A stretch of DNA of 29,016 nucleotides from a virus. The notes under the pieces are model-generated. The model did not search any database. It worked only from the letters and a program-made list of their open reading frames with translations, and was not told the origin of the DNA. Below are positions 6,132 to 20,403 of this stretch, one piece after another (position 1 is the first letter of the stretch; every line of letters begins with the position of its first letter). The stretch covers positions 1 through 29,016 of the IMG/VR virus record IMGVR_UViG_3300048929_000198; one strand, written 5' to 3'. Position numbers and translations under genes: made by a program.

Positions 6132-6147
6132 CCGCGCATGAGTGCGG
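6132..6147 (+). terminator. Possible short hairpin upstream of the giant gene
   Basis: CCGCGC (6132-6137), loop ATGA and GTGCGG (6142-6147) form a 6-bp stem with one G-U pair, followed by CTTCTC. It lies in the 121-nt gap between the 381-aa gene and the giant gene and could be a weak terminator or a leader hairpin. It is too small to be certain. Confidence 0.25.
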
Positions 6148-6168
6148 CTTCTCGATAGGAGCCCACGC

Positions 6169-9100
6169 ATGCCAATCGTTATCGGACTCGGCGAAGATGC
6201 CGAGTGGAAAGACCCGCTCAACCTTTTTGGTGGCGAAGCACCGGGTCTAGCGCCTTCAACCGGTAATGTAGATCGACAAAAACCAGACCAGAATATGCGC
6301 GTTTCCATGCCTGAAGGCATGTCAGAGCGCGATTGGAATGACACCGTCAATACGGTGATTGCCGAGGCGGCAGGCGAGGGCGATGAAGGAATGGCGGGGG
6401 TGGCGCACGTCATTCAGAACCGTTCGAAGGTTCGCGGTCAGTCGATCGGGGATGTCGTCAGAGATCCAGACCAGTTCACCGGCTACTCCAAGCCGGGCCC
6501 GAAAGCACAGGAAGCCATGCGTGACCCGCAGATGCGGGCGAGGGCCGAGAATATCCTACGATCTGTCATGGCTGGAGAGGGTGACGATCCTACCGGTGGC
6601 GCGGACCATTATCACGCCGACTATGTGAGCCCGTATTGGGCAAAGTCTATGGTCGAGACCAAGCGCATCGGCAATCACCTCTACTACAATTCCAAGGCAG
6701 GCAATAAGCCGACCAGCTCCGAGACTGCGTTCGTTTCAGAGAATGATGGTTTGGGCCTATTGGGGCCGAAAGGCCAGTTTGGTGATATGCTGAAGGGTGA
6801 GCAGAAGTCCGACGTTCCCAACCCGAGCGGGAAGGGACTGGCGAGACTCGTCAGGGAGCCAGAAGAGAAAGAGAACAGCGGGGGCGGAAAGCTCAACTTC
6901 GTGCACCCCGGTCAGGAGAAGATTGCGCCGCAGTTTGCCGCGATCCTCACTGACACGTCGAAGGCCATGGGACGCGATATCACGATCAACTCTGGGTACC
7001 GGTCGCCTACTCATCGCGTGGAAGCGGCAAAGCCAGGCGGACCCGGCGAGCATTCGGATGGCACCGCGTCTGATATCTCGATGAAAGGCATGAGCGAAGG
7101 CGAACGCGCCAAATTGGTGCGCGAGCTATATTCCCGCGGTGCTCGTCGCTTTATCACCTACAAAAACAGCCCCGACATGCTCCACGTCGACATGAAGGAT
7201 CAGACGGGCAAGGGCACGCCTTGGTTCATGTTCGACAAGTCAGCCCGCAACATGCCGAACGCGCCGGCGTGGTTCAAGGAAGTGGCGGCAAATCCCGGCG
7301 AGGCGTCAGCATCCCGAGAAGCGATCGCATCTTCGCAGGGTGATGGTGGCGCCGCGGCCGGTACCGCGATCGTCATGGACGAGAATTACAAAGCTGGTGA
7401 CGCTTTCGGCCTCTTTTCCGGCACCACAAACCCCCTCGAAGCGGAGGCGAAGGCGACAGCCCAGGCAAGAACCGATGCCGCAGCAGCCGAGGCGCAGCGG
7501 ATCGAGCAAGAGCGCGTCGCGTCAGAAACAGCAGCCAACAATCGGACGGTTGATGCCCGCATAGCGGATGGCAAGGGTCGCTATGTGGCGGTCAATGAGA
7601 GCGAGCTTCCTGATTGGCAGAAGCAGTGGGACCAAAAGAACCGCTCGTCCGGCATCGTTGGCGATATCGTCCGGCGCTTCGGTATGGGCGCTGGTAGCAC
7701 CAGCCAGTCCATAAACAACCTCAATCGGCTTATCGTCTCCAAATTGCCGGGTGGCGACAGGATCAACGAGGCGCTCGATGGAATTGACCGCTGGTGGACT
7801 GGAAAGACCCAGAACGAGCAGACCCAAGAGAGTATCGATCGGATGTCTGGCAGTCTTTCGCCAGAAGGCGAGGCGGCTCGAGAGAAGAAGTGGTGGGACG
7901 AGGAAAACAAAACGCTCGGACCGGCATGGAAAGATCCGCGAAGCTATATCGGCACCATTGCTGAAAGCGCCCCGGCGACGATCGCCACTATGGCACCTTC
8001 GGGCCTGCTCGCTCGAGGCTCATTTATGGCCGCACGGGCAGCTGGCGCAACGGCAGAGGCCGCAGCAGCGACCGCCGCAAAGACAGCAACGATCGCCGGA
8101 GGCATCTCAGAAGGTCTTTTGGGCGGTGCAGATGCTGCTCTGTCAGTCAAACAGCGCATTGCTGAACTCCCGCGTGAGCAGCTCGTCGCCTCAGAGGCAG
8201 TGAAGCAGCTCGTCCAGGGTGGATTGTCGGAAGACGACGCCATCAAAGCGCTCAGTGAAGATGCCCAGGTGCAGGCCATGCTCACGGCTGGTGTCATCAC
8301 CGGAGCCTTCGGCGGTATGGGTGACCGTGCGCTCGCGAAGATCATCGCAGAAGGCGTAGAAGGAGGTATTGCTCGACGGATTGGCGTCGGTGCGGCGAAG
8401 GGAATGGTTGGCGAAGGCATCTTCGAAGAAGCGCCGCAAAGCGCAGGCCAGACCATCGCCGAAAACGCGGCGGTAGCGCGGGTGAAGCATGATCAGGATC
8501 TGACGGAAGGCCTGGGCGAATCCGTGGCGAGCGGTGTAGCAGCCGGTGGCGCAATGGGCGGCGGCATGGGTGCCGTGGGTGGCGTCGCTCGTCCGGCCGC
8601 AAGCAACACAGGCCCATCACCAGAGGTTGGGCAGGCAGCCCCGGAACCAACAGCGCCAGTCGAGCCAGATGACCGCGGACCTCTTCGTCGAGCAGCTGAT
8701 CACGGCCAGCAGCGCCAGGCAGACCGCGGGGCAGCCGCGAATGCTGGTGTCCCGATCGATGGCCGTCCCGGCGTCAAATCCACCGTGCGCGTCGAAGCTG
8801 AAGGCGTTACGCCTTTCATGGGCACCGTTGAAGGTTACGAGGGCGACGAGGCCGTCGTGGTCGATAGTGGAAGCGGGGAAGTCTATCAGGTGCCGTTGGC
8901 AAACCTGAGCGAGATTGCGCCTCCGGTCGCTGACTACCAGTATCCGGAAAAATCCCAGGACGGCATGCCTGAGCACTCGGCAGACCCGGCGCTGCAGCCA
9001 TTGCCGCCCATGTCGGCGGAGCTGACGTCAGAAATGCCGCCACGGTCCGAAGATATCCCCGCGACAGAGAAGCGCCCGACGAGGCCGCAGGCAGGCCAGC

Positions 9101-12100
9101 GCGTCATTGTTAATGATCCGGCAGCAGGCCGCTTCTCCGCCCGGATTGAGCGATATGAGAACGGTGGTACCGAGGCCGTTGTCGTCGATGACGAAGGCAA
9201 GCCTTATCAGGTGCCCCTCGAGTCAATGAAGGTCAACGGCCTGACGCCGGCGCAAGTCGAACAACAGGACCTCGAGCGTGATCCGCCCATCGAGCGCGAA
9301 ATCGGCGATGCAGGGCCGAACAGCCGAAAGATCGGCGACAAGACTGTCGTACTGCCGGATGAGAAGCACGCCGCGCTATACGACCTTGCCCGCGAACAGA
9401 TCATCGCCAAGAAGCTCGGCGGCACCTCTCAGATCGATATGGACAGCGTCTTGCCGCAAGAGCGCAAGCGGCTTGCGAACGAATTTCGCATTAAGGTGTC
9501 GGATCTGGCGACCTTGGCCGATGACTACCGGTACCGGGCAGAGCGAGCCGCTAAACAGGCGAAATCCAAGCTTCCGGTCAACATGCATGCGGTGAACGAT
9601 CGCTTGCTGAAACAGCGCCAATCAGCACTGGCGAAAGAGGCCGGTGAGGCACCGACACCGACCGCCGATGATGGCGCGACCTGGTGGGACGTTGATCTGA
9701 CCGCACAGGATCGCAAGGGCATTCTTGAAAAAGCGGGCGTCAAGCGCTCTGAGAGGCTGACTTGGGCCGGCATGACGCCGGGCATCCGGAAGAAGCTGAC
9801 CGACGTGCGGGACGCGCAGAGGGCTGCTTCGGAGGACGTCGAGACGCTGTCCGGGCAGAGCGATGTTTCTGCCAAAATGCAGGCCATTGCAGATGAAATC
9901 GGTCAGGATGATGGAGCTGTATATCCCGATCATGCGGAAGCGATGCAGGCTGACGCGGCTGCCAACATGGCGGCCACATCGCCAACCAACGATGGTTCAG
10001 AGCCCACTGAAGCGCAGAAGGAAGCCGGAAACTACAAGGTCGGGCGTCTGAAGTTGGGCGGCCTCGATGTCTCGATCGAAAATCCGGCTGGATCTACGCG
10101 AAAGGGCGTCTCCTCATCTGGTAAAGCATGGGCCGTCGAGATGAAGAGCCATTACGGCTACATCCGCGGTACCGTCGGTCGCGACAAGGACCATATCGAC
10201 GTCTTCGTTCGTCCTGGTACCGATGCGCTGGACGATTCCTCTCCGATCTTTGTCGTCGACCAGAAAGACCCCGCGCGCGGTCGTTTCGACGAGCACAAAG
10301 TGATGGCTGGTTTCGACAACGAAGCGCAGGCGCGTGCCGCATATCTCGAAAACTACACCGCTGACTGGAAGGGGCTGGGAGACATCACCCAGACCACGCT
10401 TGGCGATTTCAAGACGTGGTTGAAGTCCGGCAAGACTTCAGACCCTTTCGCACCGAAATGGTTTGCGTCACAGGAGAAGGCGGAGGGCTACGTCGCTAAG
10501 AACAAGATGGGCGAGACCCACGAGGTTGTTCAGAGAGGTAAGCGCTTCGAAGTTCTGGAGCGAGCGCGCACCACGCCAGCGGTCCGCAGCGGGAAAGGCA
10601 CTGAGCTTGATCCAAACGCTCATCCTTGGTCCGATGTTTGGGGGAGCGATGCCGATGCGGTCTCTGACGCGCTTAGCCGCATCACCAGCACCAACGGCGG
10701 CGACACTCCTATCTCGGATGCCGTTAAGGCGGACGTCGGCAACAAGGAACTGTTGCAGCTGATCGAGAAGCGTTGGGGTGAAGGCGGCGCAGGTGGCAAT
10801 CGCTACATGATCGAGACCCGCAAGGGACCGATCGTGACGATCACGCTGGAAAAGGACGAGGGCAACCAGCGTATCGTTCTGCGCGGCAAAGAACTGGCAG
10901 ATGCCATCCGCAAGGAGTTCGCTGTTTCGCTTGAGGACATGAAGCGTGAGGCTGCCGCTCGTGAAGAGAAGGTGGAAGCACCACAGCAGCCGAAACAGGA
11001 AGCCCCAGCGCAGCAAGAACAGGCTAAATTGAAGCCTAAACCCGCAGTCTCGGAGAACAAGCTTTTCACCGAAGACGCCGCTGCCAAGGCGCGCGAGTTG
11101 CTCCGAAAGAAGCTCTCTGGGAACACGCTGAACAGCGGCATTGACCCGGAATTGCTGCAGGCCGGTATTACGCTCGCCGGCTATCACATCGAAAAGGGTG
11201 CCCGCACCTTTGCCGCATATGCGTCCGCCATGCTCGCTGACCTTGGAGAAGGCGCGCGCCCGTACCTGAGATCGTGGTATATGGGGGTGAAGTATGACCC
11301 CCGCGCCTCGGCATTCGATGGGATGTCGAGCGCGGCAGAGGTCGAGGCCGCAGACGTCAACACCTTCACCGGAGAGACCAATGAACCTGAACAACTGGAT
11401 CGAGATGGGGCGCCAGCACTGGAAGGAGTTTCTGCCGAACCGGTACCGGGAGCTGAAAGCGGCCGGGACGCTGGACGAAGCACTGGAGACAGCAGCGGAG
11501 CAGACGTATCTGGAAGCCGACCAGCTGGAGAAGAACGGGTTCCAGGCGGACGAGGCGTGGCAGATGGTGAGGGAGAACTATCTCCTGTTGCCGCCGGAAG
11601 ACAGCCAGGCAACCGAAAGCCAGACGCAGACGTCGCAGGATCTGATGAGCGCAGCGAGAAGCGGGCAAAGGACGGTCGAGATCAGGTAGCTCGTACAGCA
11701 GCGGTTCCGGCGCAGCAGCGCCCATCCGATTACGTCATCACCGACGCTGACGGTCTGGGTGAGGGCGGTCAAAAGGCGAAGTTCCGTGCAAACGTCGCCG
11801 CGATCGAGTTGGTGAAGCAGCTCGACGAGCAGAAGAGACCAGCCACCCGCGACGAGCAGGCGGTTCTCGCTAAATGGGTCGGCTGGGGCGGCTTGCGAGC
11901 TGCTTTCCCGCGTGAAGATGGCAGTGTCGCCAAGGGCTGGGAAAAGGAAGCGGCGGAGCTGAAATCGCTGCTGACGAAGGAAGAGTATAGCGCCGCCGAG
12001 TCATCGACGAGGAACGCGCATTACACGTCGCCTGAAATCGTCGATGCAGCGTGGTCGATTGCGCAGCGCCTCGGCTTTAAGGGAGGCCAGGTGCTTGAGC

Positions 12101-15100
12101 CGTCCGTTGGAGCTGGAAACTTCCTCGGTCTGATGCCCGGTGAAGTGCGCGGCACTTCCCACGTCACCGGCGTCGAACTGGACCGGATCACGGGTAGTAT
12201 TGCCAAAAATCTTTATCCATCGGCAAACATTCAGGCCCCGATCGGCTTTGAGAAGCTGACCGTCCCCAATTCCTACTTCGATCTGGCGATCGGCAATCCG
12301 CCATTTGGCTCTGAAAAGCTCTATGACAAAGAGCGGACGCATCTCAACACGCTGTCGATCCATAATTTCTTCTTTGCCAAGGCGATCGAGACGCTGCGAC
12401 CAGGTGGCATCCTAGCGATGGTCGTTACAAACCGGTTCCTGGACGGCCAGTCAGCAGCAGCGCGCAACCTGATCCAATCCAAGGCGGATTTCATCGGCGC
12501 TATCCGCCTGCCGAATGACGCGTTCTTGAAGAACGCCGGTACCGAAGTCACAACGGACATCGTCATTCTACAGCGCAGAGAAGCCGGCGCAGCCCCGAAG
12601 GGCAGCGATTGGCTCGAAGTTGTCGATTATCGCGCCAGGAACGGCAACGTCGTACCTCTCAACAAGTATTTCGTCGAAAATCCCGACATGATGCTGGGCG
12701 AGTTCGGCGGCTACGGCTCTATGTACGGTCCCAACGAGCCCGCCTTGATCGCTCGAGGCGGTCAGAATACCGCGGCGGAGCTGGCGAAAGCTGTCGAGAA
12801 GCTGCCCCAAGACATCATGGGCGATACTGTGCCTGTGAGGGTGACAGAAACTGTCACGGTACCGGAAACAGTGGGCGACGTTCAGGTCGGCACGATGTTC
12901 TCCGCCCCGGACGGATCAATTCATCTCCGCACCCCTGATCACATCGGCCAGCCCACATCCAAGGCAGTCGATTTCGCCAACGAGACGGCGAAAGAGCGCG
13001 TCGCCGGAATGGTCCGAGTAAGGGATGCTTTCGCCAAGCTGAGACGCGCTCAGATCAGCGATACCGCCTCGGATCAGCAGATTGAAAACCTGCGAAAAAG
13101 GTTGAATACCTTCTACGATGCCTTTGTAAACAAACACGGACCTATTAACAGCGACGCGAACAAGCGTCTATTCCGAGACGATCCGACGTGGCCGCAAATC
13201 AGCGCTCTTGAGCAATCCTTCGACAAGGGTTTGAGAGCGGCACTTGCCAAAAAAACAGGGGAAAAGCCCCGCGCACCTACTGCAACGAAGGCGGCGATCT
13301 TCACGCGGCGGACGCAGCAGCCTTACAGACGCCCGACAAACGCCAGCAGCGCGAAGGACGCGCTTGCGACGATTCTCAATGATTATGGTCGGGTGAACCT
13401 CGAGGCCATGTCGGACCTATATGGCAAGTCGCAAGAAGCCATCGTGGAAGAGTTGGGGTCTCTGATCTTCAAGACGCCTGCGGGCGCCTATGAGACGGCA
13501 GACCAATATCTTTCCGGCAATGTGAAGCAGAAGCTTGCAGAGGCCGAACGCGCCGCAGAGCAGGATCCAGAATACCGCCGCAATGTGAATGCGCTGCGCG
13601 ACGTGATCCCAGCCGACATCGAGGCGATCGATATCGATGTGAAGCCAGGCGCTCCATGGTTGCCAGCGAACCATGTCGAAGACTTCATTGCTCACATCGC
13701 GCAGGCAGCGGTGAAGCCGCGCGCCTATTATTCCGTCGCGAATGCGAAGTGGGACCTCACGGTCTCGCAAGTCACGCCGGCGGCGCAGACACTTTGGGGG
13801 ACTGACAGAGCCGGCGTAGGGACCGTCCTGAGTGCCGTGATGAACGGTCAGACCATCACGATCTCCGACAGGACATCGGATGGCAAGTCCATCGTCGATC
13901 AAGCAGCAACCGATGCGGCCAATGAGAAGGTGGAGCGCGTAAAAGCCGAGTGGCGCAAGTGGCTCTGGCAAGACGACAAGCGCCGTGACGATCTCGCGCG
14001 GCTTTATAACGACACGTTCAATACCGACGTTATCCAGCAGTTCGACGGCTCGCACCTCACATTGCCGGGGAAGGTCGGCGACGACATCATCGAGCTTCGT
14101 CCAAGCCAGAAGAATTTCATCTGGCGCACTTTGCAGAGCGGTACCGCTCTTGCCGATCACACCGTGGGAGCGGGGAAGACATTCGCGGCGATCGCCTCGG
14201 TCATGGAGAAGCGCCGAACCGGCCAAGCCCGCAAACCAATGATGGTGGTACCGAACCATCTTGTCGGGCAGTGGGCAGCCGACTTCGTGCGTCTTTATCC
14301 AGGCGCTAAGGTGCTGGCAGCCACAAAGCAGGATTTTGAGAAGGAACGGCGGAAACGTCTTTTCGCTCGCATAGCCACCGGCGATTGGGACGCGGTCATT
14401 GTCGCTCACTCCTCATTCGGCAGAATCGGCGTTGATCCGAATTATGAGGCGAAGTTCATCCAGCAGCAGATGGATGATCTGGAAGCCTCGCTGGCAGAGG
14501 TACGGCGCGAGACCGGGCAGAAAAGCCGAAACGTGGCGCAACTCACCAAGTGGCGCGACAACCTGAAAGCCAAGATGGAGCGGCTGCTCGATTCCGGACG
14601 CAAGGATGACGGCCTTACCTTCGACGAGCTGGGCGTCGATGCGCTCTATGTCGATGAGGCGCACGAGTTCAAGAACCTTGCTTACTCGACATCGATGCAA
14701 CGCGTGGCTGGTCTCGGCAACATGGCCGGATCCTCAAAGGCCGCTGACCTCTACATGAAGTCCCGGTTCATCCTTGAAAAGACCGGTGGCAACAACCTGG
14801 TGTTCCTCACCGGCACTCCGCTGTCGAACACGATGGCCGAAATGTACACCGTCCAGCGCTATCTCGACGAGAAGGCGCTGCGGGCCATGGGCGTGGCGCA
14901 TTTCGATGCGTGGGCGCGTGTCTTCGGCGAAGTCGTCACTGATTGGGAATTGTCACCGTCCGGTCAGTATAAGCTCAATAGCCGCTTCTCCAAGTTTGTG
15001 AACGTTCCTGAGCTGATGCAGCGGTATCGCAGCTTCGCCGACGTCATCACCAACGACGACATCAAGGCGCAGCTTGCCGCACAGGGCAAGAAATTCCCTC

Positions 15101-18100
15101 TGCCAAAGGTCAAGGGCGGAAAGCCTACCAACATCGTAGTGGAGCGCTCCCCTGATCAGGCAGCTTACATCGGCGTGGGGCAGGCCGATGACGCCGGCAA
15201 CCTGGTGTTCCCGAATGGGTCTCTTGTATGGAGGGCCGAGAACCTGCCGAAGAAGGCCGAGAAGGGCAAAGACAACATGCTGAAAGTCATGTCGGACGCC
15301 CGTAAGGCGGCGCTCGATATGCGTCTGATCGACCCAAGCTATCCGGACCACCCAAAGTCGAAGATCCATCGCGCCGCAAACGAGATGACGCGGATCTACA
15401 AGGCGTCAAAAGAAGATCGCGGTACCCAGCTCGTCTTTATCGACTTGTCCACTCCCAAAAAGGAGAGGGTCAAGGAGCAAATACGTATACGTGACCTCAT
15501 GGAGCGCGCCGCTCAGGGTGATGAGGCGGCTATGGAAACGCTCGACAACATGTCCCCCGACGAGTTCCTTTCACTCGACAGCACGTTCTCCGTCTACGAT
15601 GACCTGAAGCAAAAGCTCGTCGCTCGCGGCATATCGGAAAGCGAAATCGCCTTCATCCACGATGCCAACACTGAGGCGCAGAAGGAGGAATTGTTCGGAA
15701 AGGTCCGTTCAGGCCGCGTCCGCTTCCTATTCGGCTCTACCGCGAAGATGGGCGCCGGTACCAACGTTCAGAACCGCCTCGTCGCGCTGCATCACCTTGA
15801 TGCACCGTGGCGTCCTTCCGACCTTGAACAGCGTGACGGGCGAGGGATACGCCAGGGCAATGAGCTATATGCTGCCGATCCGGAAGGTTTCGAGATCGAA
15901 ATCCTCCGCTATGCCACGAAGAACACGCTTGATGCTCGCCAGTGGCAGACCATCGAGGCCAAGGCGCGGTTTATCCAGCAGGTGCGCAAGGGTGATATGA
16001 AAACCCGCGAAATCGAGGACATAGCAGGCGAAGCCGCGAACGCCGCTGAAATGAAAGCAGCCGCTTCCGGCAATCCTCTCATCCTTGAGGAGATGGACAC
16101 GCGCCGGAAGCTCAGACAGCTTGAGGGCCAGTCTATCGAGCACGACCGTGAGCAGCATCGCGTGAAGGGCAAGATCAAGTCGCTCGAAGATGAAGCGGAC
16201 CGGTTGCAGCGTGGTCTCTCAAAGGTCGAAGCCGATGCCGATTTGGCGCGAAAGGTTCCCGAGGAGTTCGCCGGTACCGTTGGTGGTCAAACGTTTGAAA
16301 AGCGCAAAGACTTTGGCGCGGCCATCGTCGCGGCGATGCGAAAAGAGCTGATCGACAAGGAAGGCGTTCGCGAGATCGGCGAGTACGCCGGTTTCAAGGT
16401 CGGCATTGATCCTCTGGGATTTGGCAGAGCGTTCAACGTGACGCTCGAGGGCGCGCGGGAATACACTGTTCCAGTCGACGACGCTTCCGACGTCGATGCT
16501 GCTGGTCTCGCGCAGCGCATCATGAATACCGTGAAGCGCCTCGCAAACCAGCCAGCGATCGACAAAGAGCGCATCAGCGAGGCGAAAGCGCAGGTTCCCG
16601 CCCTTCAAAAGCAGATCGGCGCGTGGGAAGGCGCTCAGGAGCTTGCCGATACCGCCGCTCGCCATCGCCGGATTTTGGACGCGCTGAAGCCTCAGCCAAA
16701 GAGTGCCAAGACGTCGGTCAAGGTGGAAGCTGGTGATGTGGATGCCCCGATCGCGAACAAGCGTCCTGATCCTGTCGTTATAGCCATCGCCAATGATCTG
16801 CAAACCGTCGGCATACCGGCTGCGCCCAATAGCACGGCCATCTTCCAGTGGGCGAAGGACACGATCGCGCGTTTCGGCAAGTCGGGGCACGAGTATCTTA
16901 TGGCCGTCGACGACGATGGCAGCGTTGTCGAGTTCGGTACCGCCAAGAAGAAGGCCGCGACCGGAATCAACAACAAGCTGTATGGCGCATTGCTCAATCC
17001 AGATCGTCGCCTCGTTGTGTTCCACAATCACCCCAGCAACAGCCCTCTGAGTGTTGCCGATATCTCAATGATGGGGATGCCGGGACTTCACTCGGTCTGG
17101 GCATTTGGAGCGAACGGCATGCAGATGCGCGCCGTTCTCACCCCCGAGGCAGAGGCCGTGATGCGCGCCGCGGCAGATCCCAATCAGACAGTGAAGGCTT
17201 GGCGAGACACCTTGTCGTCGGCGCTTGAGCAAGTCGATGCATTCTTGCGCCCACTCGTCACCAGCGGCGTGATCGATGTGGAGGCTGGCAACGCTGCCTA
17301 TACCAACACGGCGGCAATTCTGGCTCAAAAGGCCGGGCTTATCGACATTTCCTCAAATACCAACTATGATACTTCCGCCATCGAGGGCTTGAATGCCAAG
17401 CTCGATAAATTGGCGGTCGCTCTGAAGGAACAGATCAGCGATGGCACAGCAGGCAGCACCGATAAGGGGATTTCACGACGACCCGCCCGCGACGTTCGAC
17501 ACGTTGCAGAAGTGGAAGGATTGGCACGCATCGGTGAGCCAATGGCCGGCACGCGATCCGGACCGGCAGGGCTATCTGAAACAGGCGCGCCAGATTATCA
17601 GAGAAAAGAGCGCCGTTCAGACAAACAGCCAGGACGAGTCGAAGGCGTAACCCAATCGCGCATCGTCGAGGAGCTGCGCGGTAAGCTGACCGATTTGCAG
17701 CCTGCGCTCCTGAAAACCATCCCCCTTAACTATTTCTCAGAACTTGCCCGTTCGAACATGACGGCGGTTGGCGACTATCTGCGCGTCAAGCGCTTGATGG
17801 ATGCCTTCAGGGGGAAGAAGCATGCCGAGGCCGATTCCGTAGCACAGGATTGGTTGAAATACACCCGTCTTGGGTTTGCCGGCAAAGACAAGGCCAAGGC
17901 GCAGGAACTTGCCGACCTGATGCATGACGCTACCCTCGCGGGTGTCGATCCAGCCGCTACGGACGACGAGACCAAAGCGCTCTCCGGGGATGACCACCTG
18001 CGCAAGCGTTTCATGGCGCTGCCGCCAAAGGGGCGGGAACTTTATGTGAAAGTCAGGGACGCGTATCGGGAGCAGTCGCAGGAGCTTGACGAAATACTGC

Positions 18101-20403
18101 TCGACAACGTCCGCAAGGCACAGCAGATCGCTGAGAAAAACGCCGAGGATCGTTACAAGCTCACGATGCAGAAGATCAAGGACGCTGGACTGACCGGCAT
18201 TGATCGCAAGAACGCCGAGGAAGATGCCACCAGCGCCTACAAGGCGGAGACGACGAAATCCCGATGGGCAGCGAAAGCCCGCCTGACCCGGATGCGCATT
18301 GCGTTCGAATCGAGCCGGGTGCAGCCTCCATATTTTCCTCTTGGCCGTTTCGGTCGGTATTTCGCGACCGTGCGGGACATCGATGGAAGGGTGCTGAGCT
18401 TCTCAAAGCACGAGACCGTCGCTGAACGCGATCGGATGGCGCGCGAGCTACGAGCTGAATATCCGGCCGGAAAAGTCGAAGTCGGTGTGATGGAAGCCAG
18501 CGGCGACATGCGCAAGGCTATGGATCCGCGCATCGTCGCAGAAATCGAGGAGATTTTGGGCGGCGCGAACATTGGCGGCGACGTCATGGATCAGATATGG
18601 CAGCGATACCTCGAGTCGATGCCAGACCTGTCTACCCGCAAGCGCTTCATCCACCGTAAGGGCACTGCGGGTTACAGCAAGGATGCACTGCGCGTCTTCT
18701 CCTCGCACATGTTCCACGCCGCCCACCAGATGGCACGCCTGAAATACGGCCTCGAGCTGCAGGAGCTGGTCAACAACACGGTTGACCAGGCGAAGGAGAG
18801 CGACGATCAGACCCGCGCCATGACGTTGGCGAATGAGCTTTCCAGCCGCCACAAGTGGGTGATGAACCCGACTGGCAGCAAGGTCGCTCAGACGATGACG
18901 AGCACCGCCTTCGTGTGGTACCTCGCTGCATCCCCCGGTGCCGCTCTGGTCAACATGACGCAAACTGTCATGCTTGGTCTGCCTATTCTGGCTGCCAAAT
19001 TCGGAGGCTTTAAGCAGGCAGCAGTAGCGCTCAGTAAAGCTTCCGCCGATTCTGTAGCTGGCAAGGGCAGTGTGGTGAGCGATCGCCTCGCACCGGACGA
19101 GCGGCGAGCGATGGACGCGTTCTACGAATCCGGGCTGATCGACAGAACACAAAGCCATGATCTCGCAGGGGTGGGCGAAACGGGTGTCGAGTACACGCCT
19201 CTCCGAGCAAAGGTGATGGAGAAGATTTCATGGGCTTTCCACCGCGCCGAGGTTTGGAACCGTGAGGTAACTGCACTCGCGGCCTACCGCATGGCTCGCG
19301 CTGAAGGTCAGAATATGTCTGACGCGATCGACACCGCTCACGATCTGACGTGGAAGACGCACTTCGACTATTCCAACAGCTCGAGGCCCGCCGTTCTGCA
19401 GAACGACTTCGCAAAGGTCGCTCTCGTTTTCCGTCAGCACAACATCAACATGCTTTACCGGGTGGCGCGCGACATCCACCAGTCGGTTAAGGGCGAAACT
19501 CCACAGGCCCGGCGCGAAGCCCGGTACCAGCTCGCCGGCGTCATGGGCATGATGGCAGCTATGGCCGGCGTGACGGGAACCATGGGCTTCAGCGTTGCTA
19601 TGATGATTGCGGGCGCGATCTTCGGCGATGATGACGACCCGATGGCGTTTGAAGATCAGTTCAAGGCCGATGTCGTCGATATCCTCGGCCCGCAGCTGGG
19701 GGGCGTTCTTCTCAACGGTGTGCCGGGGCATTATCTGGGCATCGACCTGTCATCCCGCATTGGCATGCCGGATCTGTGGTTCCGGTCGCCGACGAGGGAG
19801 CTGCAAGGCAAGGACGAATACCAGTATTGGCTATCGCAGAGCCTCGGCGCGACGGTCAGCCTGGGCGAGCAGCTCTACACCGGCTTCAAGGTCATGACGG
19901 ATGATGGAGACGTGGCGCGCGGCATAGAGATGATGGCGCCGAAGGCGGTTCGCGACCTGATGAAAGCCTATCGCTACTCGCAGGACGGCGTTGCGACGAT
20001 CGGTAAGGATCAGATCCTCGGTGCCGACCAGATCGACGCGACAGATATTGTCGCGCAGGCGATGGGCTTCACCCCCGCCAAGATTGCAGAGACGTGGGAG
20101 CGAAACAGCGCACTGAAGAACGCAGAGACCCGCGTCAAGCGCACCCGTCAAGCGTTGATCAACAGATGGGCGATGGCGACGATGGCGGGCGACAAGGAAG
20201 CTGCGGCAGAGGTGCTGGAGAGCATCAAGCGGTTCAATTCTCTCCCCGTTCACGCTGGTTTCCCGATCAAGGGCGAAACCCTCAAGCGCTCGATCCAGAC
20301 ACGTGCCACCAACGCGGCGAAGAGAGAAGATGGGGTTCTGATCGGCAACAAGGCGCTGGGAGCGTCGCTGAGAGAGCGGTTGGCCGATCCGGTCTATCGA
20401 TAA
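6169..20403 (+). CDS. Giant polyvalent PLxRFG protein: SleB-M15-InPase-methylase-SNF2-JAB fusion (4744 aa)
   Basis: The ATG at 6169 has AGGAG at 6157-6161 (7-nt spacing); an in-frame GTG at 6142 is less likely. Domains in order, by residue: SleB-like hydrolase 51-174; M15-like Zn peptidase 242-372; Ala-rich coiled coil about 430-480; Ala/Gly-rich hydrophobic region 601-811; two SH3-like repeats 872-916 and 977-1022; InPase 1288-1421; a conserved helical block 1631-1714; disordered linker 1 about 1735-1843; N6-adenine methylase 1852-2140; SNF2 helicase 2640-3290; coiled coil 3310-3360; JAB/RadC-like 3530-3690; disordered linker 2 about 3755-3830; PLxRFG region 3835-4744. This matches the polyvalent proteins described from phages and conjugative elements, thought to travel with the DNA into the new host and carry entry and anti-restriction functions. 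Here it is probably an ejected virion protein. The TAA (20401-20403) is followed by a terminator-like hairpin. Catalytic motifs of all enzyme domains look intact. Two other genes lie in its +1 frame inside the linkers. Confidence 0.92.
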   Translation: MPIVIGLGEDAEWKDPLNLFGGEAPGLAPSTGNVDRQKPDQNMRVSMPEGMSERDWNDTVNTVIAEAAGEGDEGMAGVAHVIQNRSKVRGQSIGDVVRDPDQFTGYSKPGPKAQEAMRDPQMRARAENILRSVMAGEGDDPTGGADHYHADYVSPYWAKSMVETKRIGNHLYYNSKAGNKPTSSETAFVSENDGLGLLGPKGQFGDMLKGEQKSDVPNPSGKGLARLVREPEEKENSGGGKLNFVHPGQEKIAPQFAAILTDTSKAMGRDITINSGYRSPTHRVEAAKPGGPGEHSDGTASDISMKGMSEGERAKLVRELYSRGARRFITYKNSPDMLHVDMKDQTGKGTPWFMFDKSARNMPNAPAWFKEVAANPGEASASREAIASSQGDGGAAAGTAIVMDENYKAGDAFGLFSGTTNPLEAEAKATAQARTDAAAAEAQRIEQERVASETAANNRTVDARIADGKGRYVAVNESELPDWQKQWDQKNRSSGIVGDIVRRFGMGAGSTSQSINNLNRLIVSKLPGGDRINEALDGIDRWWTGKTQNEQTQESIDRMSGSLSPEGEAAREKKWWDEENKTLGPAWKDPRSYIGTIAESAPATIATMAPSGLLARGSFMAARAAGATAEAAAATAAKTATIAGGISEGLLGGADAALSVKQRIAELPREQLVASEAVKQLVQGGLSEDDAIKALSEDAQVQAMLTAGVITGAFGGMGDRALAKIIAEGVEGGIARRIGVGAAKGMVGEGIFEEAPQSAGQTIAENAAVARVKHDQDLTEGLGESVASGVAAGGAMGGGMGAVGGVARPAASNTGPSPEVGQAAPEPTAPVEPDDRGPLRRAADHGQQRQADRGAAANAGVPIDGRPGVKSTVRVEAEGVTPFMGTVEGYEGDEAVVVDSGSGEVYQVPLANLSEIAPPVADYQYPEKSQDGMPEHSADPALQPLPPMSAELTSEMPPRSEDIPATEKRPTRPQAGQRVIVNDPAAGRFSARIERYENGGTEAVVVDDEGKPYQVPLESMKVNGLTPAQVEQQDLERDPPIEREIGDAGPNSRKIGDKTVVLPDEKHAALYDLAREQIIAKKLGGTSQIDMDSVLPQERKRLANEFRIKVSDLATLADDYRYRAERAAKQAKSKLPVNMHAVNDRLLKQRQSALAKEAGEAPTPTADDGATWWDVDLTAQDRKGILEKAGVKRSERLTWAGMTPGIRKKLTDVRDAQRAASEDVETLSGQSDVSAKMQAIADEIGQDDGAVYPDHAEAMQADAAANMAATSPTNDGSEPTEAQKEAGNYKVGRLKLGGLDVSIENPAGSTRKGVSSSGKAWAVEMKSHYGYIRGTVGRDKDHIDVFVRPGTDALDDSSPIFVVDQKDPARGRFDEHKVMAGFDNEAQARAAYLENYTADWKGLGDITQTTLGDFKTWLKSGKTSDPFAPKWFASQEKAEGYVAKNKMGETHEVVQRGKRFEVLERARTTPAVRSGKGTELDPNAHPWSDVWGSDADAVSDALSRITSTNGGDTPISDAVKADVGNKELLQLIEKRWGEGGAGGNRYMIETRKGPIVTITLEKDEGNQRIVLRGKELADAIRKEFAVSLEDMKREAAAREEKVEAPQQPKQEAPAQQEQAKLKPKPAVSENKLFTEDAAAKARELLRKKLSGNTLNSGIDPELLQAGITLAGYHIEKGARTFAAYASAMLADLGEGARPYLRSWYMGVKYDPRASAFDGMSSAAEVEAADVNTFTGETNEPEQLDRDGAPALEGVSAEPVPGAESGRDAGRSTGDSSGADVSGSRPAGEERVPGGRGVADGEGELSPVAAGRQPGNRKPDADVAGSDERSEKRAKDGRDQVARTAAVPAQQRPSDYVITDADGLGEGGQKAKFRANVAAIELVKQLDEQKRPATRDEQAVLAKWVGWGGLRAAFPREDGSVAKGWEKEAAELKSLLTKEEYSAAESSTRNAHYTSPEIVDAAWSIAQRLGFKGGQVLEPSVGAGNFLGLMPGEVRGTSHVTGVELDRITGSIAKNLYPSANIQAPIGFEKLTVPNSYFDLAIGNPPFGSEKLYDKERTHLNTLSIHNFFFAKAIETLRPGGILAMVVTNRFLDGQSAAARNLIQSKADFIGAIRLPNDAFLKNAGTEVTTDIVILQRREAGAAPKGSDWLEVVDYRARNGNVVPLNKYFVENPDMMLGEFGGYGSMYGPNEPALIARGGQNTAAELAKAVEKLPQDIMGDTVPVRVTETVTVPETVGDVQVGTMFSAPDGSIHLRTPDHIGQPTSKAVDFANETAKERVAGMVRVRDAFAKLRRAQISDTASDQQIENLRKRLNTFYDAFVNKHGPINSDANKRLFRDDPTWPQISALEQSFDKGLRAALAKKTGEKPRAPTATKAAIFTRRTQQPYRRPTNASSAKDALATILNDYGRVNLEAMSDLYGKSQEAIVEELGSLIFKTPAGAYETADQYLSGNVKQKLAEAERAAEQDPEYRRNVNALRDVIPADIEAIDIDVKPGAPWLPANHVEDFIAHIAQAAVKPRAYYSVANAKWDLTVSQVTPAAQTLWGTDRAGVGTVLSAVMNGQTITISDRTSDGKSIVDQAATDAANEKVERVKAEWRKWLWQDDKRRDDLARLYNDTFNTDVIQQFDGSHLTLPGKVGDDIIELRPSQKNFIWRTLQSGTALADHTVGAGKTFAAIASVMEKRRTGQARKPMMVVPNHLVGQWAADFVRLYPGAKVLAATKQDFEKERRKRLFARIATGDWDAVIVAHSSFGRIGVDPNYEAKFIQQQMDDLEASLAEVRRETGQKSRNVAQLTKWRDNLKAKMERLLDSGRKDDGLTFDELGVDALYVDEAHEFKNLAYSTSMQRVAGLGNMAGSSKAADLYMKSRFILEKTGGNNLVFLTGTPLSNTMAEMYTVQRYLDEKALRAMGVAHFDAWARVFGEVVTDWELSPSGQYKLNSRFSKFVNVPELMQRYRSFADVITNDDIKAQLAAQGKKFPLPKVKGGKPTNIVVERSPDQAAYIGVGQADDAGNLVFPNGSLVWRAENLPKKAEKGKDNMLKVMSDARKAALDMRLIDPSYPDHPKSKIHRAANEMTRIYKASKEDRGTQLVFIDLSTPKKERVKEQIRIRDLMERAAQGDEAAMETLDNMSPDEFLSLDSTFSVYDDLKQKLVARGISESEIAFIHDANTEAQKEELFGKVRSGRVRFLFGSTAKMGAGTNVQNRLVALHHLDAPWRPSDLEQRDGRGIRQGNELYAADPEGFEIEILRYATKNTLDARQWQTIEAKARFIQQVRKGDMKTREIEDIAGEAANAAEMKAAASGNPLILEEMDTRRKLRQLEGQSIEHDREQHRVKGKIKSLEDEADRLQRGLSKVEADADLARKVPEEFAGTVGGQTFEKRKDFGAAIVAAMRKELIDKEGVREIGEYAGFKVGIDPLGFGRAFNVTLEGAREYTVPVDDASDVDAAGLAQRIMNTVKRLANQPAIDKERISEAKAQVPALQKQIGAWEGAQELADTAARHRRILDALKPQPKSAKTSVKVEAGDVDAPIANKRPDPVVIAIANDLQTVGIPAAPNSTAIFQWAKDTIARFGKSGHEYLMAVDDDGSVVEFGTAKKKAATGINNKLYGALLNPDRRLVVFHNHPSNSPLSVADISMMGMPGLHSVWAFGANGMQMRAVLTPEAEAVMRAAADPNQTVKAWRDTLSSALEQVDAFLRPLVTSGVIDVEAGNAAYTNTAAILAQKAGLIDISSNTNYDTSAIEGLNAKLDKLAVALKEQISDGTAGSTDKGISRRPARDVRHVAEVEGLARIGEPMAGTRSGPAGLSETGAPDYQRKERRSDKQPGRVEGVTQSRIVEELRGKLTDLQPALLKTIPLNYFSELARSNMTAVGDYLRVKRLMDAFRGKKHAEADSVAQDWLKYTRLGFAGKDKAKAQELADLMHDATLAGVDPAATDDETKALSGDDHLRKRFMALPPKGRELYVKVRDAYREQSQELDEILLDNVRKAQQIAEKNAEDRYKLTMQKIKDAGLTGIDRKNAEEDATSAYKAETTKSRWAAKARLTRMRIAFESSRVQPPYFPLGRFGRYFATVRDIDGRVLSFSKHETVAERDRMARELRAEYPAGKVEVGVMEASGDMRKAMDPRIVAEIEEILGGANIGGDVMDQIWQRYLESMPDLSTRKRFIHRKGTAGYSKDALRVFSSHMFHAAHQMARLKYGLELQELVNNTVDQAKESDDQTRAMTLANELSSRHKWVMNPTGSKVAQTMTSTAFVWYLAASPGAALVNMTQTVMLGLPILAAKFGGFKQAAVALSKASADSVAGKGSVVSDRLAPDERRAMDAFYESGLIDRTQSHDLAGVGETGVEYTPLRAKVMEKISWAFHRAEVWNREVTALAAYRMARAEGQNMSDAIDTAHDLTWKTHFDYSNSSRPAVLQNDFAKVALVFRQHNINMLYRVARDIHQSVKGETPQARREARYQLAGVMGMMAAMAGVTGTMGFSVAMMIAGAIFGDDDDPMAFEDQFKADVVDILGPQLGGVLLNGVPGHYLGIDLSSRIGMPDLWFRSPTRELQGKDEYQYWLSQSLGATVSLGEQLYTGFKVMTDDGDVARGIEMMAPKAVRDLMKAYRYSQDGVATIGKDQILGADQIDATDIVAQAMGFTPAKIAETWERNSALKNAETRVKRTRQALINRWAMATMAGDKEAAAEVLESIKRFNSLPVHAGFPIKGETLKRSIQTRATNAAKREDGVLIGNKALGASLRERLADPVYR
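6319..6690 (+). other. Domain: SleB-like cell-wall hydrolase (giant protein residues 51-174)
   Basis: The pattern AEAAGEGDEGMAGVAHVIQN (65-84) followed by R85, then a V-V..P.QF segment, DPTGGADHYH and a final NHLYYN, is the Hydrolase_2/SleB layout (E-A.GE...G..AVA.vi.NR; QF; DPT.GA..Y). E66 or E70 would be the catalytic acid. SleB-type enzymes are lytic transglycosylases. In a virion protein this would help DNA cross the peptidoglycan, or it could serve lysis. Confidence 0.85.
6892..7284 (+). other. Domain: M15-like D,D-peptidase (residues 242-372)
   Basis: SGYRSPTHR, then GEHSDGTASDIS, then MLHVDMK match the Peptidase_M15_3 pattern. H295, D302 and H339 would be the zinc ligands and are all present. 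Members cut peptide bonds in peptidoglycan stems. The domain follows the SleB-like domain after a 70-residue linker, giving glycan-strand and peptide-cutting activities on one chain. Confidence 0.8.
7969..8601 (+). other. Ala/Gly-rich hydrophobic region of the giant protein (residues 601-811)
   Basis: About 200 residues are dominated by Ala, Gly, Ile and Met, with helices such as AGATAEAAAATAAKTATIAG and a terminal GGAMGGGMGAVGGVA stretch. In between is EGIFEEAPQSAGQTIAEN, a motif seen in large phage ejection proteins. The composition suits insertion into or passage through a membrane. Function is inferred. Confidence 0.5.
8782..8916 (+). other. SH3-like repeat A (residues 872-916)
   Basis: TVRVEAEG, F.GTVEGYEGDEAVVVD and YQVPLANL form a small beta-barrel-like unit. 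It is paralogous to the unit at residues 977-1022, with which it shares the AVVVD..G..YQVPL core. Such units usually bind nucleic acid or protein; here the role is unknown. Confidence 0.6.
9097..9234 (+). other. SH3-like repeat B (residues 977-1022)
   Basis: QRVIVNDPAAG.F.ARIERYENG precedes the same EAVVVDDEGKPYQVPLESM core as in repeat A, about 105 residues downstream of it. This is an internal duplication separated by a Pro/Glu-rich linker. Confidence 0.6.
10030..10431 (+). other. Domain: polyvalent-protein inorganic-pyrophosphatase-like (InPase, residues 1288-1421)
   Basis: The block starts NYKVGRL..GL.VSIENPAGS.R, continues HYGYIRGTVGRDKDHIDVFV, then FVVDQKD....FDEHKVMAGF and ends FKTWLKSG. 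D1339-x-D1341-x-x-D1344 reproduces the D-x-D-x-x-D metal-binding signature of class I inorganic pyrophosphatases. This fits the InPase family described within phage polyvalent proteins. It would hydrolyse pyrophosphate or a related phosphoanhydride; the true substrate is unknown. Confidence 0.85.
11371..11376 (+). promoter_or_regulatory. Shine-Dalgarno-like GGAGAG for the nested gene at 11381
   Basis: GGAGAG stands 4 nt (GGAG 6 nt) upstream of the ATG at 11381, well placed for internal initiation on the giant mRNA. Confidence 0.55.
11381..11689 (+). CDS. Nested gene in +1 frame inside the giant gene (102 aa)
   Basis: It lies wholly inside the giant gene, in the +1 frame, with ATG at 11381 and TAG at 11687-11689. 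The 102-aa product looks like a genuine folded helical protein. It begins MNLNNWIEMGRQHWKEF, continues with LKAAGTLDEALETAAEQTY and FQADEAWQMVRENYLLLP, and has a polar Gln/Ser/Thr tail. In this frame about 84% of third positions are G or C (86 of 102 counted by eye). In the overlapping giant frame the third positions of the same bases are only about 40% G/C and the product is a disordered Gly/Ser/Asp/Arg linker. So the nested frame carries the coding signature. I recall similar W-I-E...W.E..P...R.L small proteins beside phage polyvalent methylase genes, but cannot prove homology here. Function is unknown. The frame is open upstream to 11294, but that extension is not protein-like. Confidence 0.75.
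   Translation: MNLNNWIEMGRQHWKEFLPNRYRELKAAGTLDEALETAAEQTYLEADQLEKNGFQADEAWQMVRENYLLLPPEDSQATESQTQTSQDLMSAARSGQRTVEIR
11722..12588 (+). other. Domain: N6-adenine DNA methylase (residues 1852-2140)
   Basis: Motif I is VLEPSVGAGNF (1975-1985), which would bind AdoMet. Motif IV is NPPFG (2043-2047), the catalytic loop of N6-adenine methylases. Upstream are GEGG..AKFR and KWVGWGGLRAAF, the usual lead-in of phage and plasmid methylase-SNF2 proteins, and AHYTSPEIV precedes motif I. A likely role is protective methylation of incoming DNA (anti-restriction). Target specificity cannot be read from the sequence. Confidence 0.9.
14086..16038 (+). other. Domain: SNF2-type helicase/translocase (residues 2640-3290)
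   Basis: Walker A is VGAGKT (2666-2671), the DEAH box is VDEAH (2828-2832), motif III is LTGTPLSNT (2880-2888), and the C-terminal lobe has STAKMGAGTNVQNR and motif VI QRDGRGIRQGN (3221-3231). All motifs look intact, so the ATPase is probably active. SNF2 proteins move along duplex DNA. Coupled to the methylase, this would be an anti-restriction or DNA-remodelling engine. Confidence 0.92.
16756..17238 (+). other. Domain: JAB/RadC-like metalloprotease fold (residues 3530-3690)
   Basis: HNHPSNSPLSVADI holds the JAMM pattern: H3619, H3621, S3628 and D3631. It is preceded by KLYGALLNPDRRLVVF, as in RadC/MPN domains. The zinc-binding residues are kept, so an isopeptidase or peptidase activity is possible. 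It could process the giant chain itself or act on host proteins; neither is proven. Confidence 0.8.
17441..17650 (+). CDS. Second nested gene in +1 frame inside the giant gene (69 aa)
   Basis: ATG at 17441 and TAA at 17648-17650, in the +1 frame of the giant gene, the same phase as the first nested gene. The product begins MAQQAAPIRGFHDDPPATF and then forms Trp- and Arg-rich helices (LQKWKDWHASVSQW, YLKQARQIIREKS) before a polar tail. About 74% of third positions are G/C in this frame (51 of 69 by eye) against about 46% in the giant frame, whose product here is a disordered Gly/Arg/Ser linker. AAGGA at 17425-17429 is 11 nt upstream, longer than ideal, so initiation may be weak. Function is unknown. 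It sits just between the JAB-bearing block and the PLxRFG block, as the first nested gene sits between the InPase block and the methylase block. Confidence 0.65.
   Translation: MAQQAAPIRGFHDDPPATFDTLQKWKDWHASVSQWPARDPDRQGYLKQARQIIREKSAVQTNSQDESKA
17671..20400 (+). other. PLxRFG C-terminal region with hydrophobic segments (residues 3835-4744)
   Basis: The eponymous PPYFPLGRFGRYF lies at 4053-4065. It is preceded by long charged helices (about 3950-4040) and followed by a hydrophobic stretch at 4248-4276 (FVWYLAASPGAALVNM onwards). A stronger one lies at 4453-4486 (Met/Ala/Gly-rich), ending in an acidic GDDDDP turn. This 900-residue block is the standard C-terminus of PLxRFG phage proteins. 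A role in membrane insertion during ejection is inferred from composition. Confidence 0.8.

Follow-up and report, generated by a model that had tools for sequence, protein, structure and literature searches.

A small reading frame inside a giant gene

The window that we analysed, a 29-kb fragment of a virus record, contains one very long gene on the plus strand, in which two much smaller open reading frames (ORFs) are embedded out of frame. The features discussed below are the following.

6142–20403 (+): giant polyvalent DarB-like gene, a single ORF of 4753 codons with Pfam and PHROG matches, open in nearly all relatives
11371–11374 (+): GGAG, Shine-Dalgarno match for the nested gene (sequence; start conservation)
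11381–11689 (+): nested gene, 102 aa, TnpV-like (+1-frame homologues, omega, stop avoidance, AlphaFold2)
11690–12903 (+): start of the giant's LPD36-adenine methylase part, directly 3′ of the nested gene (conserved block; giant omega 0.10)
17425–17429 (+): AAGGA, which may be a Shine-Dalgarno match for the second nested gene (sequence)
17441–17650 (+): second nested +1-frame gene, 69 aa (synonymous trough, omega, stop avoidance, homologues)

According to Pfam and PHROG matches, the giant comprises Hydrolase_2, Peptidase M15, InPase, LPD36/N6-MTase, SNF2 helicase, and LPD39 domains, and it meets the criterion for a DarB-like polyvalent gene, namely a single chain that combines LPD36-MTase-SNF2 with further domains acting early in infection. 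Its relatives are either injected or part of the virion, and virions of phage JC1 have been found to contain the giant (PMC9144972). Polyvalent proteins and DarB were described in 2017 (PMC5512222), and the host gene, with LPD36-MTase-SNF2 alongside InPase and LPD39, belongs to the same kind; overlapping genes are not mentioned in that description, according to a text search. The LPD36-MTase part is common to 107 phage records. P1 darB, which begins straight at the methylase part, differs from the window's giant in that it has no nested ORF. As a side observation, the giant of Pseudomonas phage Itty13 (L020 7905–19163) is unannotated, opposite-strand ORFs having been called in its place.

The first nested ORF, read in the +1 frame relative to the giant, opens with an ATG at 11381, 6 nt after the GGAG, and closes with a TAG at 11687–11689, just as an earlier note on this DNA had described it. 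That note had also estimated by eye a third-position GC content (GC3) of about 84% in the nested and 40% in the giant frame, and our computation agrees: GC at codon positions 1, 2, and 3 of the nested frame is 0.60, 0.39, and 0.84, against a giant-frame third-position value of 0.39 across the same bases—the largest gap between the two frames anywhere along the 14-kb gene. Over these bases, the giant-frame residues are 83% G/S/D/R/P/A/E/Q, in line with the Gly/Ser/Asp/Arg linker proposed there. The nested frame is already open from 11291 and holds a further ATG at 11294; the start that is conserved and carries the Shine-Dalgarno match is 11381, not this upstream ATG.

GC3 by itself is not decisive, since a similar shift at 8.4–8.9 kb comes with a +1 frame that is not under selection; the deciding evidence is homology, together with stop avoidance and the selection seen in the two frames. 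We rejected the +1 ORF at 8546–8908 (+) as a gene because its +1 omega is near 1 despite the GC3 shift, and kept it as a negative control. It serves as a reminder that GC3 shifts in linkers rich in Ala, Gly, Arg, and Asp can mislead.

Selection in two frames and a probable internal start

Had the ORF arisen by chance, both its +1 GC3 signal and its open frame would be by-products of the Gly/Arg/Asp/Ala-rich linker encoded by the giant frame, a reading to which the similar but gene-less shift at 8546–8908 lends some support. The pattern of substitutions speaks against it. Across 74 related pairs and 73 codons, omega was 0.23 in the nested frame and 1.06 in the giant frame on identical bases, with 474, 368, and 1097 substitutions at nested codon positions 1, 2, and 3, i.e., 1097 of 1939 at third positions. 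A control stretch of 400 codons downstream behaved in the reverse manner (giant omega 0.10, +1 omega 1.02), and a sliding scan of the whole giant found the nested stretch to be the only one with a giant omega near 0.9. These omegas are counting estimates from non-independent pairs with a transition weight of 2; the difference from the control stretch is nonetheless large. Constraint on the giant frame alone, which the earlier note had named among its grounds for refutation, is the opposite of this outcome.

Moreover, in 63 distinct nested ORFs, 0 of the 668 NNY codons at which a final T would put a stop into the giant frame end in T, against 330 of 1337 elsewhere (loci were picked by similarity of the nested product rather than by an open giant frame, and one remnant was excluded). 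The absence of giant-stopping codons implies that both frames must remain readable, and the criteria for overlapping genes—purifying selection in the nested frame, both frames kept readable—are met. As far as these comparisons go, the giant's linker is under no selection of its own beyond staying open. Together with a conserved start, a Shine-Dalgarno match, and homologues across several phyla, the dual-frame result refutes a chance ORF on sequence grounds, and we give that reading practically no credence.

A Shine-Dalgarno match of at least 4 nt precedes all 60 of 60 distinct nested starts, as opposed to 21% of the other +1-frame ATGs in the same genes. The nested frame could instead be reached by programmed frameshifting and form an alternative C-terminus of the giant's N-half, as in Sinorhizobium phage PBC5, where a frame change upstream fuses the N-half with the nested domain in a single frame (orf33, 2185 aa; L016 5752–12309). 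PBC5 is a single record from 2001, though, and a sequencing error is possible behind the split. In many phages, including those of Erwinia and Klebsiella, a nested-frame stop lies 2–5 codons upstream of the ATG, which leaves almost no room for a frameshift fusion. Given these nearby stops and the Shine-Dalgarno match at every start, independent internal initiation at the nested ATG appears much more likely, and we consider frameshifting very improbable.

Nested coding, constraint, a conserved start, and selection for an open giant frame are accordingly all features that sequence evidence establishes; expression of the nested gene is inferred, as there are no ribosome profiling or mass spectrometry data.

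A family missing from phage annotation and its probable relation to TnpV

By tblastn, the nested product matched 21 phage records at 37–90% identity, among them records of Agrobacterium (89%), Sinorhizobium PBC5 (66%), and Ochrobactrum (47%) phages; in phages of Vibrio, Pseudomonas, Erwinia, Klebsiella, and Microcystis, identity is about 48–60% over a core of 70 residues. Further homologues reside in 64 IMG/VR loci and in 4 genome contigs. All lie in the +1 frame within a long open giant frame, except for PBC5 and a decayed remnant (L065), the latter having been considered as a stand-alone nested gene and rejected. Conversely, 77 of 78 LPD36-MTase loci (a set that overlaps with that of the nested homologues) possess a +1 ORF of at least 75 aa with the same end point, and 70 match the nested-family profile. 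A +1 ORF also occupies the corresponding place in the distant DarB-like phages BcepMigl, JC1, USP_25, Y7, 8P, and BKO1-TP3; comparison of diverged nested groups with the family gave an HH probability of 98.7%, the others being weaker. No match to the family was found in plasmids by tblastn, and its profile, run against 385 genomes of one bacterial class, retrieved the known locus only. The stand-alone homologue in related phages that the earlier note had sought did not turn up in close form among the homologues found; relatives that stand alone do so at the level of TnpV only.

None of the annotated relatives' records that we examined contains a separate CDS over the nested gene, which fits the suspicion that it had gone unannotated. 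The sole annotated CDS to include the nested domain is PBC5 orf33, a longer ORF that ends with it. This same orf33 underlies phrog_938, labelled ‘endolysin’, a label that we rejected for the nested gene because it stems from the PBC5 N-half. Gene callers discard ORFs lying inside larger ones, and consequently a gene family found in almost every giant of the clade is absent from phage annotation.

An AlphaFold2 model built from 59 sequences places helices at residues 3–17, 19–28, 31–51, and 56–67, with pLDDT above 90 up to about residue 70, a four-helix core (1–72), and a disordered tail; the folded helical product anticipated from the sequence is thus predicted for about residues 1–70. Neither of the two models that we compared had a significant match in the PDB (Foldseek), the only hit among viral models was PBC5 orf33, and a sequence search of solved structures with the nested product returned designed helices only, with no real match.

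The closest named family is TnpV (PF14198; Tn4451-type and related mobile elements). The window's ORF scores 17.4 bits against it, under the 27-bit gathering cut-off, and was for that reason not filed as a member; the best Pfam E-value among 17 nested relatives is 1.8e-4, and only a gut-phage gene (L100) exceeds the cut-off, at 86.8 bits. Profile against profile, the nested family matches TnpV with an HH probability of 74% (E 2.8e-5). Lengths are similar, and the helices of a TnpV model (26–38, 40–48, 52–78, then others) seem to follow the same order as in the nested protein, as judged without direct superposition. The nested family lacks the N-terminal strands and the C-terminal AEE..ELIY motif of TnpV, and its close members never stand alone. 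The profiles and predicted models together point to a probable but remote kinship between the family and TnpV.

Nesting in the +1 frame of polyvalent giants of at least 1500–2200 codons is also seen for some true TnpV genes, both in contigs of gut phages and on plasmids of Bacillota (Monoglobus, Cohnella); others stand alone, and 20 of 23 IMG/VR loci carry TnpV without a spanning giant. No TnpV above cut-off was present in 198 genomes of one bacterial phylum. In two Bacillota plasmid records (L183 5983–6333, L185 4992–5327), TnpV is annotated, and the spanning other-frame ORF of at least 2000 codons is absent from the gene table, which for these records (PLSDB) is incomplete.

Mobile elements are the typical setting of TnpV, and the nested gene may have originated as a selfish insertion, an out-of-frame gene tolerated by its host. 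The ShiLan phage methylase gene, which contains an out-of-frame HNH element, is a precedent of the same geometry (PMC11855218); TnpV is also present on Streptococcus suis elements that have inserted into snf2 genes (PMC9815147). Nearly every relative, however, has the gene at the same place, and no empty site is seen in the clade; nor is there a nuclease motif or a family match in Pfam, NCBIfam, or PHROGs, so that the criterion for a homing endonuclease is unmet. In both ShiLan and the window, a hidden out-of-frame gene has bases that are read as a loop in a methylase gene; the ShiLan element is a sporadic homing endonuclease, whereas the nested gene is near-universal, non-nuclease, and fixed in place. 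We therefore regard insertion of this kind as an unlikely account.

As a hidden gene, the ORF that the earlier note called overprinted is real; the direction may be reversed. Since the nested product looks TnpV-like, with relatives that are stand-alone or nested, and since the linker is not itself under selection except to stay open, the small gene may be the older frame, the giant's linker having been made by reading through it. Sequence comparison does not prove this order.

A second nested gene and the proposed role of the pair

A scan of the entire giant for loss of synonymous change and reversed omega yielded exactly two deep troughs, one at the first nested gene and one at 17302–17572. 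The latter covers a +1 ORF (17441–17650) with a product, DPPATFDTLQKWKDW...LKQARQIIREKS, that recurs in conserved form at 24 IMG/VR loci. There too, omega is lower in the nested (0.34) than in the giant frame (1.28), and giant-stopping codons are avoided (0 of 51). The end of this ORF coincides with the beginning of LPD39.

In Erwinia phages, the windows of lowest synonymous change are the first nested gene and a place roughly 6 kb downstream. This second-lowest region (about 18120–18180) overlaps a +1 ORF (L021 17908–18177) of different sequence, which may correspond to the window's second nested gene.

We are highly confident that 11381–11689 is a genuine +1 protein-coding gene, with its own Shine-Dalgarno sequence and ATG on the giant's mRNA; that it is expressed, and acts as a partner, is inferred. 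In the model that we propose, the giant mRNA would carry internal ribosome binding sites at which some ribosomes start, producing small helical proteins. Other ribosomes would stay in the giant frame and read the nested bases as a flexible, structureless linker that joins the N-terminal part (cell-wall hydrolase, pyrophosphatase) to the LPD36-methylase-SNF2 part. The nested product would be a four-helix protein of about 75 residues with a variable tail, a member of a large and hitherto unannotated family distantly akin to TnpV. Synthesised alongside the giant, it would bind the methylase-helicase part and act as its partner in assembly or packaging.

We propose this role because the nested gene is kept in cis immediately before the methylase-helicase module. 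A co-translated partner of that part is the most likely function, held only tentatively, as it is inferred from position alone; the existence of stand-alone TnpV genes and of a P1 darB without a nested ORF argues against it. The product might instead share nothing with the giant except the mRNA and act independently, e.g., in DNA binding, as an excisionase-like factor, or in anti-defence. On the basis of similarity to lambda Xis, an excisionase-like function was postulated for the TnpV of Tn4451 (PMC3158075), and stand-alone TnpV genes would suit such a role. Set against this, the close family never stands alone and always occurs in cis with the methylase-helicase module, and we judge independent action possible but rather unlikely.

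Out-of-frame nested phage genes are already known, as Rz1 in Rz and the ShiLan HNH element attest. Like the nested gene, Rz1 is a complete out-of-frame gene inside another with its own start; those are small lysis genes, whereas the nested gene encodes a soluble helical protein and lies within an injected polyvalent gene of 14 kb. In the literature searched, coverage of which is incomplete, we found no report of a nested gene that is near-universal in polyvalent genes. Long-conserved out-of-frame gene pairs are, to our knowledge, rare in large DNA phages, and they offer a strong test case for two proteins sharing bases.

The gene lists for a large phage group have probably missed the nested gene and at least one more. 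As the scan yielded a second one at once, more nested genes probably await in other giants. Extending the partner reading, we can imagine—as a conjecture that is somewhat short of even—that the polyvalent anti-defence genes carried by phages and by conjugative elements are nested operons, in which small helical +1 genes (at least two in the window) placed before specific domains encode the partners of those domains, and in which linkers arose by read-through of pre-existing small genes. The mechanism of the injected methylase-helicase is, as far as we know, poorly understood, and the nested products may be its missing partners.
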